A DNA stretch of 44,206 bases. Source: an uncultured Fidelibacterota bacterium. Lineage in GTDB: Bacteria > Fidelibacterota > Marinisomatia > Marinisomatales > Marinisomataceae. The DNA is taken from positions 1 through 44,206 of the forward strand of contig CACKGC010000008.1 of NCBI GenBank assembly GCA_902599655.1, given 5' to 3'. This document shows positions 7,226 through 42,244 of the stretch, one piece after another (position 1 is the stretch's first letter; the number at the start of each line of letters is the position of its first letter). Both the position numbers and the translations under genes were made by a program. The notes beneath the pieces were generated by a model, which searched no databases, was not told the origin of the DNA, and worked only from the letters and a program-made list of their open reading frames with translations.

Positions 7226-8170
7226 ATGCAATTATTTCCTAAAGCAAAAGTCTTCAATTCTTTCAATCTAAAAGTATCTGAATTACATACAATTTTTGTT
7301 GAAGAGTCAGGTAATAAAAATGGAAAACCGGTAATTTTTCTACATGGAGGACCAGGAGGTGGAATTAGTTCTACATATAGACAATATTTTAATCCTGATG
7401 AGTGGAGAATAATTATGTTTGACCAAAGAGGTTGCGGTAAAAGCACGCCTTTTGCAGAACTTGAAGAGAATACTACATGGGATTTGGTAGCAGACATAGA
7501 AAAGATAAGAGACCATCTTCAAATTGATCAATGGGTAGTCTTTGGGGGAAGTTGGGGAAGCACTTTGTCTTTGGCATACAGTCAAAAACATCCAAATGCG
7601 TGCAAAGGTCTAATTTTAAGAGGTATTTTTTTAGTTCGTAAGAAAGAAATTGACTGGTTTTATCAATATGGGGCAAGCAACATCTATCCAGATAAATGGG
7701 AATCTTATTTAGCACCAATTCCTGAACATAAAAGAGATAATTTATTAAGTGCATATTATGAAATTTTAACTGGCGATGATCATAAAAAGAAAATTGAAGC
7801 AGCAAAAGCCTGGAGTACATGGGAGGGAAGTTCTGTTAGGCTCATCTTAGATGATGATTTTATATCTGATTTTGGTGATGCAAAATTTGCTGAAGCGTTT
7901 GCTAGAATTGAATGCCATTATTTTATGAACAATTGTTGGCTTCCAACTGAAAATTATTTAATCGAGAATGTTGATAAAATAAGACATATTCCAGCAGTAA
8001 TAGTTCATGGAAGATATGATATAATTTGTCCTGTTGTTCAAGCTTGGGATTTACATAAAGCATGGCCGGAAGCAGATTTACATATTATTCCTGATGCAGG
8101 ACACTCAATTTATGAAGAAGGTATTAAAAATAAACTACTTGAATACACTGACAAATTTCTTAAGCTTTAG
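7226..8170 (+). CDS. pip: Proline iminopeptidase (peptidase family S33)
   Basis: An alpha/beta-hydrolase that removes N-terminal proline from peptides. The 314 residues show the oxyanion HGGPGGG motif near residue 40, MFDQRGCGKSTP, and the nucleophile elbow GGSWGS with Ser109. The late acid and base are likely in GRYDIICPV and DAGHSIYEEG. The length and the motif order fit prolyl aminopeptidases. No signal peptide is present, so it is cytosolic. It is a single-gene unit, divergent from pnt and convergent with an exported protein gene whose stop lies only one base from its own. Confidence 0.93.
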   Translation: MQLFPKAKVFNSFNLKVSELHTIFVEESGNKNGKPVIFLHGGPGGGISSTYRQYFNPDEWRIIMFDQRGCGKSTPFAELEENTTWDLVADIEKIRDHLQIDQWVVFGGSWGSTLSLAYSQKHPNACKGLILRGIFLVRKKEIDWFYQYGASNIYPDKWESYLAPIPEHKRDNLLSAYYEILTGDDHKKKIEAAKAWSTWEGSSVRLILDDDFISDFGDAKFAEAFARIECHYFMNNCWLPTENYLIENVDKIRHIPAVIVHGRYDIICPVVQAWDLHKAWPEADLHIIPDAGHSIYEEGIKNKLLEYTDKFLKL

Positions 8171-8183
8171 TTTATAAGAAATT
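8154..8183. terminator. Hairpin spanning both stop codons of a convergent gene pair
   Basis: AATTTCTTA (8154-8162) and TAAGAAATT (8175-8183) are perfect inverted repeats of 9 bp. The 12-base loop contains the TAG stop of pip and the TAA stop of the opposite gene. No long T tract follows on either strand, so it is a probable bidirectional transcript end rather than a textbook terminator. Confidence 0.5.
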
Positions 8184-8774
8184 CGCAATTATTGCTATTA
8201 ATGCTCCGGCTGAAAAAGATGTTGAGTTTGTAATATCTATAGCAGAAACAATTAAGCCAGCAATAACTATCAATTTATTATTTGCATTTCTTGGTTGCTC
8301 TTTTTCATAGATAATATCTTTTTCTTTTGGAGTTTTTTCTTCTGTTTGAACAATATCAATTTCGTCTTCCACAGAAATACTATTTTTGGCAACTAATTGA
8401 CTGTTTCTCAGGAAAAATTGCAAAGTTTTTCTGTTCGGAGTATTTATTTCAAAAGATTCAATCTCTGAAAATAATTGAACAGCAATTTGAGTAGATTCAT
8501 CGCTATTTGAAACTTCAATATTTTTTAAAGAATCATTTTTGTAATTAGCTAAAGATAAGCTATCTGCATTAGCATCATATATCGTCATGTAGAACCATTC
8601 TGAAGAATACCAAGCAGTAACATTTTCAAGATTTACTTTCTTGTTTGAATCAAGCTGGATAACTGTACCGTTATTTTTTGATTCAATTTGCAAATTTTTA
8701 ATTCTTAAATCTTGAGATAGAATAATAGAACTGGAAGCTAAAAATAAAATAGTTACTAATAGATTATTTCTCAT
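8172..8774 (-). CDS. Exported protein of unknown function
   Basis: I do not recognise a family. The 200 residues begin with a clear signal peptide (MRNNLLVTILFLASSSIILSQ), continue with a beta-rich domain of about 110 residues, a charged Glu/Lys-rich linker (about 135-165), and end in a hydrophobic region (about 168-200) that could be one or two membrane segments. The central part, with phrases such as IAVQLFSEIESFEIN, loosely resembles AMIN-type periplasmic domains, but I would not claim it. It is monocistronic, between convergent pip and divergent alaS. A periplasmic domain tethered by the C-terminus is the most likely topology. Confidence 0.75.
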   Translation of the reverse strand: MRNNLLVTILFLASSSIILSQDLRIKNLQIESKNNGTVIQLDSNKKVNLENVTAWYSSEWFYMTIYDANADSLSLANYKNDSLKNIEVSNSDESTQIAVQLFSEIESFEINTPNRKTLQFFLRNSQLVAKNSISVEDEIDIVQTEEKTPKEKDIIYEKEQPRNANNKLIVIAGLIVSAIDITNSTSFSAGALIAIIANFL

Positions 8775-8821
8775 CCATTGAATATATTATTTGTTTAGAT
8801 TCATATGAAACAATTTTATCG

Positions 8822-11359
8822 ATGAAAAGTTCACAAATTAGAGAATCATTTATCAGCTTTTTTGAAAGCAAAAGTCATGCTCGTGTACCAAGTGCACCGG
8901 TTCTTCCAATTGGAGATAAGTCCTTGCTATTTACAAATGCTGGAATGAATCAGTTCAAAGCAATTTTCTTGAATACAGAAGAACCTAAAGATTTACGAGT
9001 AGCAAATAGTCAAAAATGCATTAGAGTTAGCGGAAAGCACAATGATTTGGAAGAAGTTGGAAGAGACGGATTCCACCATACTTTTTTTGAAATGCTTGGA
9101 AATTGGTCATTCGGTGATTATTACAAAAAAGAAGCAATTGAATGGTCATGGGAATTGTTTACAAAAGTTTGGAAACTAGATAAATCCAGATTATGGGTTA
9201 CTGTTTATGAAGAAGACGACGAAGCTTTCGATTTATGGAAAAATCAAACAGATATAAATCCAAATCGAATAATTCGTTCTGGTGCAAAGGATAATTTTTG
9301 GGAAATGGCTGAAACTGGACCATGTGGTCCATGTTCTGAAATTCATTACTATGTTGGAAATAATCCAGGAGATCAACAAGCTGAACTGGTTAATAATTCT
9401 TCAGAGTATTGGGAATTATGGAATCTTGTATTTATTCAATTTAATCGCCTCAAAGATGGAACTATGGAGGATTTGCCAAAAAAACATGTAGACACTGGTG
9501 CAGGACTTGAAAGAATTTGTTCAGTATTGCAAAACAAAGATTCAAATTATAAAACTGATTTGTTTTCAAAAACGATTGAAGATTTAGAAAATTTTTCTAA
9601 CACAAAATATCAAGATTTTGAGGTTTCATATAATGTTATTTGTGATCATATAAGAATGCTGTCATTTGCAATTGCTGATGGAGTTGTTCCATCAAATGAT
9701 GGTAGAGGTTATGTTGTCAGAAGAGTTCTGAGAAGAGGTTCAAAATTTGCTATGAATTTGGAAATTAAAGAACCGATTCTATACAAATTGGTTGATTCAG
9801 TGGTTTCGACTATGTCTTCACATTATCCAGAGCTAAAAGAAAAACAAAAATATATTGAGCAAACTATTCTTTCAGAAGAACAGTCATTCTTGCGAACACT
9901 TGAAAATGGAGTTATTCAATTTGAAAAAATTGTAAGCAGTACATCTGGATCAGAAATACATGGGAAAGATGCATTTAAGCTGTATGATACTTATGGATTT
10001 CCACTTGATTTAACTCAGCTTATGGCTGAAGAAAGAAAGATGACTGTTGATATAGATGGTTTTGATGTTGAAATGAGAAATCAAAAAGAGTTAGCTAAAT
10101 CTGGTCAAAAATTTGAAATGGATAATCTTGATTTAAAATGGAACTTAGAAACTAAAAGCAGCCATTCGATTTTTGTTGGTTATGAAAATGAAAGTATTTC
10201 TTCGAAAATTATAAATCACGCTGAAAGCGTAGACGACATAATAATCATTCTAGAAAATACCCCTTTTTATTCCGAGTCTGGAGGTCAAATTGGCGATACA
10301 GGTATAATAAGGAATGATGACTTTTCAGCTAGAGTCAATGATACCCAAAAAAATGGAGATTATGTTTTACATATATGCACACTAACAAATGGCAATATTG
10401 GTGACAATCTTTCTGTAGATTGCATGATAGACGTTGATAGAAGAAATAATATTAAAGTGAATCATACAGCAACCCACTTACTTCATCAATCGTTAAAAGA
10501 TGTTTTAGGTAACCATGTAAATCAGGCAGGATCTTTAGTTCATCCAGAATATTTAAGGTTTGATATTACTCATCCAAATAAAATTTCTTCAAAGGAATTA
10601 GAATCTATTGAGTTAATTGTAAACCAGAAAATAGATGAAGATATCACAGTTGAAACAAGTATTAAAAGTTTGGAAGATGCTAAAAAAGAGGGCGCTACTG
10701 CATTGTTTGGTGAAAAGTATGGAGACCAAGTTAGGGTAGTTACAATGGGCGAGTTTTCTAAAGAATTATGTGGAGGAACCCATGTTTCAAGTACAGGTAA
10801 AATTAATAAATTTAAAATTAAGCATGATAAAGCAATCTCATCTGGAATTCGAAGAATAAACGCTATCACTCATAATCAAGTTGATTTGTATTTAAAGGAA
10901 AAATCAGAAGAACTAGGATTGCAAAAAGAAGCAGAGCAGAAGAAAGCAGAAGAAAAGCAAAGTCAATCCATTTTACTTGATAGTGTAAATGTTGATTTAA
11001 TAGCAAGTAAACCAATAAAGGAAATTAATGGAACTGATTTATTTTTTAGCAAAGTTGAGCTAGGAATTGCATCAGATTTAAAAAGCTTGAATAAAAAAAT
11101 TAAAAATAAGATTGACTCAGGAATAATATTTTTATTTACTGAAATTGAAAATAAAACAACAATATCTGTTGGCGTCTCTGATGACTTAATTGCTAAAAAT
11201 TTAAAAGCTGGAGATTTGGTAAAATCTATTGCATTAGAACTTGAAGGCGGAGGCGGAGGTAGAGAGGATTTTGCTATGGCTGGAATACCTCATACGAACG
11301 CAGATGATTTAAAAGCAGTTGTTGAAAAAATAATTTTAAGTATTTTGGAGGAAATATAA
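8822..11359 (+). CDS. alaS: Alanine--tRNA ligase
   Basis: AlaRS charges tRNA-Ala and edits mischarged Ser and Gly. The 845 residues are close to the usual length. The N-terminal class II core has the motif FHHTFFEMLGNWSFGDYY and GPCGPCSEIHY. The editing domain has the zinc ligands HTATH (His548, His552) and CGGTH (Cys650, His654). A lysine/glutamate-rich coiled coil follows, and the C-terminal DHHA1 domain ends with the glycine run GGGGGREDFAMAG. There is no obvious Shine-Dalgarno before the ATG. It heads a + strand operon and its stop overlaps the next start by one base (TAATG). Confidence 0.98.
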   Translation: MKSSQIRESFISFFESKSHARVPSAPVLPIGDKSLLFTNAGMNQFKAIFLNTEEPKDLRVANSQKCIRVSGKHNDLEEVGRDGFHHTFFEMLGNWSFGDYYKKEAIEWSWELFTKVWKLDKSRLWVTVYEEDDEAFDLWKNQTDINPNRIIRSGAKDNFWEMAETGPCGPCSEIHYYVGNNPGDQQAELVNNSSEYWELWNLVFIQFNRLKDGTMEDLPKKHVDTGAGLERICSVLQNKDSNYKTDLFSKTIEDLENFSNTKYQDFEVSYNVICDHIRMLSFAIADGVVPSNDGRGYVVRRVLRRGSKFAMNLEIKEPILYKLVDSVVSTMSSHYPELKEKQKYIEQTILSEEQSFLRTLENGVIQFEKIVSSTSGSEIHGKDAFKLYDTYGFPLDLTQLMAEERKMTVDIDGFDVEMRNQKELAKSGQKFEMDNLDLKWNLETKSSHSIFVGYENESISSKIINHAESVDDIIIILENTPFYSESGGQIGDTGIIRNDDFSARVNDTQKNGDYVLHICTLTNGNIGDNLSVDCMIDVDRRNNIKVNHTATHLLHQSLKDVLGNHVNQAGSLVHPEYLRFDITHPNKISSKELESIELIVNQKIDEDITVETSIKSLEDAKKEGATALFGEKYGDQVRVVTMGEFSKELCGGTHVSSTGKINKFKIKHDKAISSGIRRINAITHNQVDLYLKEKSEELGLQKEAEQKKAEEKQSQSILLDSVNVDLIASKPIKEINGTDLFFSKVELGIASDLKSLNKKIKNKIDSGIIFLFTEIENKTTISVGVSDDLIAKNLKAGDLVKSIALELEGGGGGREDFAMAGIPHTNADDLKAVVEKIILSILEEI

Positions 11360-37795: not shown

Positions 37796-40033
37796 ATGAG
37801 ATATAAATACTTAAATATTATTTTAATGTTTGGTGCGCTTTTTGCCCAAGATAAAATATCATTAGAGAATGTACTTGATGGCACATTTAGAACTGAATCA
37901 ATTGGAAGATATGATTGGAAGAATAGTTCTGATTCATATTATTTTTCTGAAAGAAGTGATGAAGGGTTAGAGTTTTATGAATATAATCTTGCTTCAAATG
38001 ATACCTTAAAAGCCTTTACAGTTAAAAAAGATATCATTAGCAATTTTTCGTATTCATTTAGTCCAGATCAAACAAAGTTACTTTTGAAAAAGAATTCAGT
38101 AAAGCTATGGAGACATTCGTCTTATGGTTCATATTATGTGTACGATATATTATCAGAATCTTTAACGCCTGTCACTAGTGATCCTGATAGTTTAAGAAAT
38201 GTAAAATTTTCTCCAGATTCCAACAAGCTAGCATTCGTTCGAAATGATAACAATTTATACCTTTTTGATTTAACTAATGAGCTTGAAGAACAGCTTACTT
38301 TTGATGGGAGCGAAGATATTCTTAACGGACATTTTGGATGGGTTTATGAGGAAGAGTTTGGTACTTATGATTCATACAAGTGGAGTCCTAATAGTGAATA
38401 CATTGCGTTTATAAGAGAAGACCAAACATATGTTAAAGAGTATGCTTTGGTTGATTATGAAGCACAATATCCAGTTGTTAAGTACATCAGGTATCCTAAA
38501 ACTGGAGAAGATAATCCTATTGTTTCGATTAGTATATTAGATTTAAAAAATAAAGAATATAGATCAGTCAACTTACCAGATACGGCATATTATATTCCCG
38601 ATATTATTTGGCAAACCAATTCATCTAATCTTTATTTTGCTACTTTAAATAGAAAGCAGAATGATTGGAATTTATATAAATATGATTTCGATACTAATGG
38701 AGCATACCTAATTCTAAATGACTCAAATGATTCATGGATTGATAGAGATCCGTTTATTGTTCCAGGTGAAATTGGCACATGGACTACCAAGAGAGGTTTT
38801 AGTTTTGCGATTATGGATGATGGAGAAATCATCTGGATTTCTGAAAAAGATGGATTTAGTCATATTTATAGAAATAGACCTGATGGTAGACCAATAAACC
38901 AAGTTACAAGGGGAGATTGGGAGGTAAATAACATAAGTGCAATTGATTATAAAAATGAAATGATTTATTTCTCAGCTAAGAAAGAGACTGAAACAGAAAA
39001 TCATCTTTATTCCATTAAATTCAATGGTTCCAGACTTAAAAGACTTACCAAAGAAAAAGGCTCTCATTCATCATCTTTCTCTCCAACATTAAACTATTTC
39101 ATTAATTCATATTCAAGTTTTACAGTTCCTCCTAAAACACTCATAAGAGAAGATAATGGAAAGATTGTTAGAATTCTCAAAGAAACAGATAAGTCTAAAT
39201 TTGATGCATATAATCTAACCTATCCTCAACTAATTAATATTTTTACAGATGATGGTACTAGGCTTAATGCTTTAATTACATATCCTCATAATTTTGATCC
39301 AATGAAACAATATCCTGTTATTCTTTATAATTATGGTGGTCCTGGATCACAATTAGTTATCAACAGGTGGGGCGCAGGAAGTCACACTTTACATCAATAT
39401 TTTGCAAGTAGAGATTTTATCATTTTTTCATTTGATAATAGAGGTACTGGTGGAAGAGGAAAAGCATTCAAAGATTTAGCTTATGGTGATTATGGTAAAT
39501 ATCTTGTTAAGGATCATATTGAAGCAGCAAAATATTTAAAAGGTCTTACTTATGTTGATGGAGATAACATCGGAATATGGGGTTGGAGTGGCGGCGGTTA
39601 TTTGACTAACATGTGTATGACTTTAGCTAGCGATTATTTTAAAGCTGGTATATCTATTGCTCCAAATGTAGAGCCGTTACTATATGATACTATTTGGACA
39701 GAAAGATATATGGGGTTAGTTGAAGAAAATCCAGAAGGATATAAAAATGCCTCAGTACTTACACACGTAGATAAAGCTAAAGGACATCTACTCCAAATAC
39801 ATGGAAATGCAGATGACAACGTTCATCATCAGCATTCAATAAAGCTTGCTAAAGCGTATGCAGAACATGGAAAAGAAATGGAGATGTTCATTTATTCAAA
39901 TGCGAACCATGGAATGTCTAATAATAATTTTTTAAGCGAAGATCATCCAGCTGATGGATGGAAGAATAGATACCATCTTTATAAGAAGATGGCTGATTTC
40001 TTCATGGAGCATTTAGTAACAGATAATTTTTAA
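37796..40033 (+). CDS. Dipeptidyl peptidase IV (peptidase family S9B)
   Basis: A secreted serine peptidase removing X-Pro or X-Ala dipeptides. The 745 residues begin with a signal peptide (MRYKYLNIILMFGALFAQ), followed by the eight-bladed propeller, with the substrate N-terminus binding GHFGWVYEEEFG (about 178-189), and the alpha/beta-hydrolase domain. The nucleophile is Ser598 in GIWGWSGGGY, the acid is in HGNADDNVHHQ (Asp673/674), and His705 is in SNANHGMSN. LYNYGGPGSQ contributes the oxyanion site. The length is normal. It is probably periplasmic and works with Pip and PepA in peptide use. It converges with the IDO-like gene with a 4-base overlap. Confidence 0.96.
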   Translation: MRYKYLNIILMFGALFAQDKISLENVLDGTFRTESIGRYDWKNSSDSYYFSERSDEGLEFYEYNLASNDTLKAFTVKKDIISNFSYSFSPDQTKLLLKKNSVKLWRHSSYGSYYVYDILSESLTPVTSDPDSLRNVKFSPDSNKLAFVRNDNNLYLFDLTNELEEQLTFDGSEDILNGHFGWVYEEEFGTYDSYKWSPNSEYIAFIREDQTYVKEYALVDYEAQYPVVKYIRYPKTGEDNPIVSISILDLKNKEYRSVNLPDTAYYIPDIIWQTNSSNLYFATLNRKQNDWNLYKYDFDTNGAYLILNDSNDSWIDRDPFIVPGEIGTWTTKRGFSFAIMDDGEIIWISEKDGFSHIYRNRPDGRPINQVTRGDWEVNNISAIDYKNEMIYFSAKKETETENHLYSIKFNGSRLKRLTKEKGSHSSSFSPTLNYFINSYSSFTVPPKTLIREDNGKIVRILKETDKSKFDAYNLTYPQLINIFTDDGTRLNALITYPHNFDPMKQYPVILYNYGGPGSQLVINRWGAGSHTLHQYFASRDFIIFSFDNRGTGGRGKAFKDLAYGDYGKYLVKDHIEAAKYLKGLTYVDGDNIGIWGWSGGGYLTNMCMTLASDYFKAGISIAPNVEPLLYDTIWTERYMGLVEENPEGYKNASVLTHVDKAKGHLLQIHGNADDNVHHQHSIKLAKAYAEHGKEMEMFIYSNANHGMSNNNFLSEDHPADGWKNRYHLYKKMADFFMEHLVTDNF

Positions 40034-41622
40034 TTTTCAGATTGCATTGCAATTTTTTGGAATTGTTGCATTGCAGTTTCATGATTTGACGTAATATTAA
40101 TAAGCTTATCTGCCCATGGTAAATTTTCATTTTCTATTAAACTCTGTAATCTATCTATGCTGTGAGTAAACATTTTTGGAAGGAAGGTAGGAGTAGGAGA
40201 CCCTCCAGTACCTTTAGCTTTTGTTTGATGCTGATAAGGATCTGGCGCTCGTAGAATATAGCTAACAACCATTTTATAATGATCTATTCGATGTTGAATA
40301 ATCCATCTTACTGCACTAGCTAAGATTTTTTTATTATCATTACTAGATTCGATCTTTGAAAAATAATTTGAGTTTTGAATAATATTTCTCGTTTTAACAA
40401 TCATGGCATGATGCGCAGGAGGTCTGTATCCAACTCTAAATGATTTTAGTAATTTTGTTAGTGAGTCAACTTCAACATTTTTTGGCAAATCTTCAGAGCT
40501 AACATACCCTTTTTCTAACACTCCTTTAATCATAGATTTGTCAACAATTTTATCTGCGATATATGCGTGAGTATGGTCACCCACGCCTGTAATTTCATCT
40601 GCGATGGGATGATATGAGCTGTTTGCACCAGTTTGACCATGAAGGTTTGATAGATATAATCCTTTTGAATTATTATCTTCATTGAATTCTTCTCCGCAAT
40701 TTTCAAAAAATAAACCTTTGCTTGGGTAAATACTTCCCTGATTTCCAAACAGACCTTGAATAAAAATTCTAACTTCTTTATTGTACAGTAGTGGTTCGCT
40801 TACCTTCCACATTGCATTAAATAATTGATTTGATTGTTTAGTAGCTAATTCAACTTTCTCAAGATTTTCTTTAATATCATTTCCCTTTACTGCTAAAAGA
40901 GCATTTTCAATCATCATATTTGAAGTTCTTTCCATAGCTAGGTGGGTCATTCTAAATCCTTGTTCGTTTCCATCAAAATCATGAAAAGCAACTAAAGGCT
41001 TAATTGATCTTATATAATCTATATTTTTATTCAAATCATCATAATTATCTAATTCTTGATCTGGAAGAATCCCAGATCGTAATACATAATCTGCAGCATA
41101 CTCAAATTCAGGTTGTTGGCCTGTAATTCTTGAAGATAATAAAAGCAGTCCTGATAGTGGCCATGGGATGAATGAACATGCTTTCTTTTTTCCGTTAAAA
41201 ACTGGCTCAATTTTAATTCCATTAGCTAACCATGAAGACCAACATCTTACATTGGCAATTAATTCAGCTGATTCTTTTGTTGGGCTAGCAATATGATTTT
41301 GTACATCTAAAATAAATTTATCCATTAATCCATCATCAATTAACTTTACTTCATTAAATAAGGCATTTTGTCCAATTAAACCCGTTTTTGAATTATTGTG
41401 CACAGTCATTGCAAGTGCAATATCTGATAATATGCTGTAAGGAGCTGGAAGTTTATTAAGGGTCGAGTATGGCAAGGTTGAATTAGGTTGCCAAATTAAT
41501 TCTGATGTTTGTTGAATTAAGTTTGCATCAAACTCTAAACCAAATAAATATTCATTAAATTGAATTCCATTTCCAAGGTATGGAAAATGATCATCTGTGT
41601 TAATTGAAATATTAGATTTCAT
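40030..41622 (-). CDS. Indoleamine 2,3-dioxygenase-like heme protein
   Basis: A 530-residue protein of the IDO/TDO heme-dioxygenase superfamily. The C-terminal part DHYKMVVSYILRAPDPYQHQ and KAKGTGGSPT align with the human IDO1 proximal-heme segment (SYHLQIVTKYI and AKGTGGT), making His448 the likely iron ligand. VRIFIQGLFGNQ aligns with LRIYLSGWKGNP, so Arg285 matches substrate-binding Arg231. GFRMTHLAME aligns with GFFLVSLLVE, placing His227 where IDO1 has Ser167. It could oxidise tryptophan or another indole to a formyl-kynurenine-type product, but no kynurenine genes are adjacent. It is longer than the usual 400 residues. No signal peptide is visible. It starts at ATG 41622, 11 bases inside the TlpA gene. 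Family assignment is by manual alignment. Confidence 0.82.
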   Translation of the reverse strand: MKSNISINTDDHFPYLGNGIQFNEYLFGLEFDANLIQQTSELIWQPNSTLPYSTLNKLPAPYSILSDIALAMTVHNNSKTGLIGQNALFNEVKLIDDGLMDKFILDVQNHIASPTKESAELIANVRCWSSWLANGIKIEPVFNGKKKACSFIPWPLSGLLLLSSRITGQQPEFEYAADYVLRSGILPDQELDNYDDLNKNIDYIRSIKPLVAFHDFDGNEQGFRMTHLAMERTSNMMIENALLAVKGNDIKENLEKVELATKQSNQLFNAMWKVSEPLLYNKEVRIFIQGLFGNQGSIYPSKGLFFENCGEEFNEDNNSKGLYLSNLHGQTGANSSYHPIADEITGVGDHTHAYIADKIVDKSMIKGVLEKGYVSSEDLPKNVEVDSLTKLLKSFRVGYRPPAHHAMIVKTRNIIQNSNYFSKIESSNDNKKILASAVRWIIQHRIDHYKMVVSYILRAPDPYQHQTKAKGTGGSPTPTFLPKMFTHSIDRLQSLIENENLPWADKLINITSNHETAMQQFQKIAMQSEN

Positions 41623-42244
41623 TTTTACCAATTAAGTTATCAATAAATTTGAAAACAGACTCGTCATTCCAAAAAGCACTTCCAAGATCCTTTACAATAA
41701 CTTCTCCATTTGAATTAACAATGAAGGTTGTAGGAATACCTGAAGTTGCAAAGAATTCATCATCTGTGATAATCTTGTATATTGGCAGTTGTTGAAGACT
41801 TTCATCTTTTGGTATATAATTTTTTATTGTATCTAATTTTTCTCTAGATAAGTATAAAAATATTATATCTTCTTCATCTTTGTATTTTTCGTACAGCTCA
41901 GCCATATAAGGCATTTCGGCTAAACAAGGATTACACCAAGTTGCCCAATAGTTTATAAATAGATTTTTTCCTTTAAAATTTTGAATAGTGAAAATATTAT
42001 TCTCAAGATCGGAGAATTGTAGCATATTGCTATCAAAATCTATTGTTGTAACTTTCATATCTTCAGCTGATGGTGCTTCAAGTTTAGGAGCTTCAATCAC
42101 TTCATTTAAATACATGATTGATAAGTCTTTATAGTACTCTTTGTACTTTTTTAATTCTTTATTTGTGTCGTTATATTTGTAAGAAAGAAATGACAAAATA
42201 ATTATTAAAATTATTATTATAGAGTATAGTTTTTTTGAGTCCAT
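41612..42244 (-). CDS. TlpA/ResA-like membrane-anchored thioredoxin
   Basis: A 210-residue thiol-disulfide oxidoreductase. One N-terminal helix (about 7-22) anchors it, followed by a charged helix and a thioredoxin-like domain with active site WATWCNPC (Cys104, Cys107), and the cis-proline loop GIPTTFIV (Pro171). The domain faces the periplasm. Such proteins reduce cytochrome c apoproteins or other envelope dithiols. It is upstream of, and overlaps by 11 bases, the IDO-like gene, so the two are likely translated from one mRNA. Whether there is any functional link is unknown. Confidence 0.92.
   Translation of the reverse strand: MDSKKLYSIIIILIIILSFLSYKYNDTNKELKKYKEYYKDLSIMYLNEVIEAPKLEAPSAEDMKVTTIDFDSNMLQFSDLENNIFTIQNFKGKNLFINYWATWCNPCLAEMPYMAELYEKYKDEEDIIFLYLSREKLDTIKNYIPKDESLQQLPIYKIITDDEFFATSGIPTTFIVNSNGEVIVKDLGSAFWNDESVFKFIDNLIGKNEI

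Follow-up and report, generated by a model that had tools for sequence, protein, structure and literature searches.

Family Assignment of the Long IDO-Like Protein

A gene with the C-terminal signature of indoleamine 2,3-dioxygenase (IDO) and a histidine at the position of human IDO1 Ser167 raises the question whether it encodes an IDO, a hybrid with tryptophan 2,3-dioxygenase (TDO), or an enzyme with another substrate. The gene lies in the window, i.e., the whole stretch of 44,206 nucleotides analyzed here, and encodes P0001, a predicted protein of 530 amino acids (positions 40030-41622, minus strand; ATG at 41622, stop codon ending at 40030). The genome of the window is small (approximately 0.7 Mb) and 81.5% complete, and the related genomes are titled Marinimicrobia or Neomarinimicrobiota, now Fidelibacterota.

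P0001 scored 43.1 bits with the Pfam IDO family (PF01231), for which the cut-off is 26, and this was the only Pfam family that it matched. The ORF is kept across the genus, with PF01231 matched by all 14 members scanned, and above the cut-off the family was found in P0001 and in 29 genomes of the phylum. When the family profile was searched against the PDB, human IDO1 chains ranked first; the top-scoring chain, 6cxu, is named in the Foldseek table as the human IDO1 S167H mutant with tryptophan and cyanide. Two blocks of P0001 could be aligned to human IDO1, a distal block (F163, residue 167, and R231) and a proximal block (H346 and GTGG). The original prediction of an IDO-like protein with the C-terminal hallmark of the family was thus borne out, as the HMMER alignment placed His448 opposite H346 and the AKGTGG loop opposite the human EAKGTGG. 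It had also suggested a relationship to TDO or PrnB and a profile search to examine it. That search identified IDO only, and membership in either family was rejected, since neither the Pfam TDO model (PF03301) nor the PrnB model matched P0001 even at E-values up to 10. The family match and the alignments support P0001 as a divergent, long heme enzyme of the IDO family.

The structure of P0001 was modeled with AF2 using 21 genus sequences. The model had a mean pLDDT of 59 and poor long-range geometry, and a second prediction of the core (residues 55-495) was no better (pLDDT 57). In a Foldseek search with the first, low-confidence model, human IDO1 structures were on top (best E-value 8 × 10−7), with the S167H mutant second, which lends some support to a predicted IDO fold.

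Active-Site Residues

The residues expected of an IDO active site are encoded on the minus strand at positions 40279-40281 for His448, the predicted proximal heme ligand (paired with H346 in the HMMER alignment with human IDO1), 40942-40944 for His227, the distal-pocket equivalent of Ser167, 40768-40770 for Arg285, the equivalent of the carboxylate-contacting Arg231, 40930-40932 for Glu231, the equivalent of E171, and 40201-40212 for the GTGG motif (residues 471-474), in which T472 corresponds to T379. All of these are invariant in the genus, and F163 has an equivalent in P0001 as well. The match to Arg231 had been pointed out before and holds. In IDO1, R231 and T379/GTGG make contacts to the carboxylate and ammonium of tryptophan, and E171 is fully conserved across the IDO1 family (PMC5700043, from which the roles of the human residues are taken). 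The pocket of P0001 differs from that of human IDO1 in that the alignments place Tyr280 at F226, Tyr179 at C129, Gln330 at G262, and Gly332 at A264. For C129 and the DE loop, the surrounding human letters are what we take to be the IDO1 sequence.

The Distal Histidine Is Common among Microbial IDOs

His227 does occupy the Ser167 position, as the original prediction had it. In the HMMER alignment the residue opposite His227 is Ser in wild-type human IDO1 and His in 6cxu, the S167H mutant, and a profile-profile alignment (E = 3 × 10−14) independently placed FRMTHLAME of P0001 opposite FIAIHVAIE of haloarchaeal IDOs. The conclusion drawn from it, that this histidine points to a cross between IDO and TDO or to a PrnB-like enzyme acting on a different substrate, was not supported by comparison with further sequences. 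Among the prokaryotic IDOs outside the closer Marinimicrobia IDOs, all eight that were aligned have His at this position; they were drawn from plasmid records and other genomes and belong to Sphingobium, three haloarchaea, two Methylocystis, the Marinimicrobia genome G174, and G945, a genome of the phylum to which the Flavobacteriaceae genome G245 belongs. Therefore, the histidine alone marks neither a hybrid nor a new substrate, and the idea that it is an exotic feature was rejected. Thr is found at the same position in four shorter Marinimicrobia IDOs (L028, L029, L031, and L032).

The distal His of TDO forms a bond with N1 of the indole, and in human IDO1 the Ser167His substitution destabilizes the oxy complex (PMC5758539). 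The natural His227 of P0001 corresponds to this engineered residue, and the natural distal-His IDOs can be regarded as natural counterparts of the S167H mutant. The Ser/His contrast, which is often used to tell IDO from TDO, does not delimit the family in microbes.

The IDOs encoded on haloarchaeal plasmids (Haladaptatus L085, Halomicrococcus L084, and Natronosalvus L088) share with P0001 the His at position 167 and a DE loop of the R-G-x-(S/T)-G-A-Q type, and have Tyr or Phe at F226 and, in two of the three (L084 and L085), Tyr at C129. They differ from P0001 in being approximately 386 amino acids long, without the N-terminal extension or large insertions. In addition, kynureninase is encoded adjacent to or near all three of these genes, and an alpha/beta hydrolase near two of them.

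Long Form of the Protein

P0001 was said to be about 130 residues longer than typical IDOs, and the alignments agree, the shorter IDOs being approximately 358-397 amino acids in size. Part of the additional length is an N-terminal extension (residues 1 to approximately 55; 41458-41622, minus strand) that is missing from the shorter IDOs in the alignments. Another part is an insertion after the DE-loop region (residues approximately 347-386; 40465-40584, minus strand) that was seen only in this genus-level family. As judged from the alignments, it is the length, the N-terminal segment, the insertion, and the altered pocket residues that are unusual in P0001, and not the distal His. Our verdict, drawn from sequence comparison, is that P0001 represents a new long-form variant of the known IDO family.

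Distribution and Gene Neighborhood

Of the 23 other genus genomes, 22 carry the long IDO gene, two of them as fragments only. The homologues are collinear with P0001 and 61-96% identical to it. Pairwise dN/dS values of 0.05-0.23 show that the gene is under purifying selection. A record from the same order but another family (JABIHN010000012.1, C76 of genome G059; L070) also bears the IDO locus; since it carries the gene order of the genus, it is probably a mis-binned contig.

The gene directly 5' of the IDO gene (41612-42244, minus strand) encodes a TlpA-like thioredoxin-fold protein with a WCNPC motif and a hydrophobic N-terminus (Pfam Redoxin, 49.8 bits); the last 11 nt of this gene are shared with the beginning of the IDO gene. 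Wherever a genus locus includes upstream sequence, such a TlpA-like gene lies directly 5' of the IDO gene and overlaps or abuts its start. It probably encodes a separate envelope redox protein, with a putative functional tie to the IDO. Downstream and convergent to the IDO gene is a gene for a dipeptidyl-peptidase IV-type peptidase, which was found in nearly all genus loci that reach that far, with an extra ORF in between in two or three of them. In agreement with the original prediction, no kynurenine-pathway gene was recognized among the immediate neighbors.

Probable Transfer to Flavobacteriaceae

Contigs were scanned with genus-specific peptide patterns, which other relatives could escape, and the only full-length relative found outside the genus was L066, a contig titled Flavobacteriaceae bacterium isolate AqS4. 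Its IDO gene (7784-9376; 82% identical) is located, together with two small unrelated ORFs, between sdhA and sdhB and amid flavobacterial genes, and no TlpA-like partner stands beside it. In the trees, the L066 protein is nested inside the genus family. The copy is therefore best read, on the strength of these placements, as a solitary gene transferred from the marine Marinimicrobia genus. A viral or phage origin of the long IDO was rejected, since no relatives were found in viral contigs or phage records and no viral structure matched the model at E ≤ 0.001.

Both kynureninase (TIGR01814, 420 bits) and 3-hydroxyanthranilate dioxygenase (NF009763, 246 bits) are encoded in the recipient Flavobacteriaceae genome. 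In the approximately 1.06 Mb read, about two thirds of its approximately 1.6 Mb, no TDO motif was seen.

Tryptophan, Kynurenine, and Heme Genes of the Donor Genus

Among the 24 genus genomes, none had kynureninase (TIGR01814) above the cut-off, and none had a formamidase of the cyclase/KynB type (PF04199), the class of formamidase covered by this genus-wide search. TDO was not found in the genus. 3-Hydroxyanthranilate dioxygenase was not found either, an absence that weighs little because the control genomes were also silent. The setting of an operon-type kynurenine-pathway IDO, with formamidase and kynureninase nearby or elsewhere in the genome, was thus not seen, and in this the genus differs from both the human and the haloarchaeal systems.

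The biosynthetic genes were searched for by tblastn with E. coli protein queries in the genus member G019 (95% complete, 1.02 Mb). No trpE, trpC, or trpA was detected, and trpB and trpD gave only weak partial matches. Likewise, nadA, hemB, and hemC were not detected, and the nadB match coincided with succinate dehydrogenase. No match to a flavobacterial ferrochelatase was found in G019, and ferrochelatase was identified in four of the 24 genus genomes (G000-G023) and in none of the eight best ones. Heme-copper oxidase and cytochrome-like genes are nevertheless present in G019. Since ferrochelatase is rare and trp genes were not convincingly found, most members of the genus probably obtain the heme of the IDO from external sources, as G019 probably does its tryptophan. 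A conserved heme oxygenase in small-genome marine organisms with no detected genes for making tryptophan, and mostly without ferrochelatase, would point either to a new reaction or to a step in the marine turnover of tryptophan that has gone unrecognized.

Proposed Function

The reading that we favor, with a probability of roughly 0.6, is that P0001 is a cytosolic heme-b oxygenase of the IDO family that converts L-tryptophan to N-formylkynurenine. His448 would bind heme b, and O2 would bind on the distal side of the heme. Arg285 and the GTGG loop (T472/G473) would hold the tryptophan carboxylate, and His227 would contact the indole NH in the manner of the distal His of TDO. O2 would then be added across the C2-C3 bond of the indole, opening its ring to give N-formylkynurenine. 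As the genus has no detected TDO, kynureninase over the cut-off, or KynB-type formamidase, the product may be released or converted by enzymes not recognized in the genus. The likely setting would be the breakdown of peptide-derived tryptophan. We count in favor of this reading the family match, human IDO1 as the top match in the PDB profile search and in the Foldseek search with the low-confidence model, the invariant catalytic positions, the distal-His IDOs near haloarchaeal kynureninase, the L066 recipient with its kynureninase and 3-hydroxyanthranilate dioxygenase, and the purifying selection. Against it we count the missing downstream pathway of the donor genus, tryptophan as a needed import in G019, the pocket differences from human IDO1, and the poor AF2 model.

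Because the genus has no recognizable downstream pathway, a substrate other than tryptophan is possible for P0001. A heme oxygenase of the IDO superfamily could act on another indole (a tryptophan derivative, tryptamine, or indole) or carry out a MarE-like monooxygenation, an outcome that would account for the missing kynurenine pathway and would fit the genus-specific insertions and the altered pocket. MarE and PrnB, which belong to the same wider superfamily of His-ligated heme aromatic oxygenases, make no N-formylkynurenine. However, the R231 and T379 equivalents for the tryptophan carboxylate and ammonium are kept, the gene is present in a recipient with two kynurenine-pathway enzymes, and the kynureninase-adjoining IDOs share the same distal His, so we consider such an outcome less likely, if well worth keeping in mind. 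It is also conceivable that catalysis has been lost and that P0001 binds heme or senses O2 with a redox tie to its TlpA-like neighbor. The conserved gene pair speaks for this, as does the absence of ferrochelatase from most genus genomes, given that heme may then be scarce; a full and invariant catalytic set under purifying selection, and a gene that was transferred without TlpA, make it unlikely.

Least probable of all is a PrnB-like or TDO-like enzyme. TDO resembles P0001 by analogy in its distal His, substrate Arg, and GTGG motif, of which the distal His would be the one specific resemblance, but the two profiles were silent and IDO1 was the top PDB match by sequence as well as in the fold search with the low-confidence model.

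Returning to an oxygenase of the IDO family, we tentatively suggest that the long forms, found in a lineage with no detected tryptophan-making or standard kynurenine-pathway genes, may constitute a genus-restricted branch that operates outside the kynurenine pathway, either in a new indole oxidation or by releasing N-formylkynurenine to seawater as an exchange metabolite.

IDOs of Intermediate Length

The IDOs of G174 and G945 are approximately 470 amino acids in size and share with P0001 the distal His, an RGQTGAQ loop, and, in similar form, the GL(I/L) stretch of the N-terminus and the C-terminal tail. They are, in contrast, only approximately 22-25% identical to P0001, lack its initial N-terminal segment and the insertion at residues 347-386, and have other neighbors. 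Class V aminotransferase-type genes (L034:2904-4112 and L172:827-2140) are located beside or approximately 12 kb from the IDO genes of these two genomes; the one in G945 had its best scores with PvdN and SufS models, far below the cut-off. In G945, a gene for a PqqB-like MBL-fold hydrolase (L153:260-1240) adjoins the IDO gene, and a protein 55% identical to this hydrolase is encoded elsewhere in G019 (C1:712564-713382), possibly just as a common protein.
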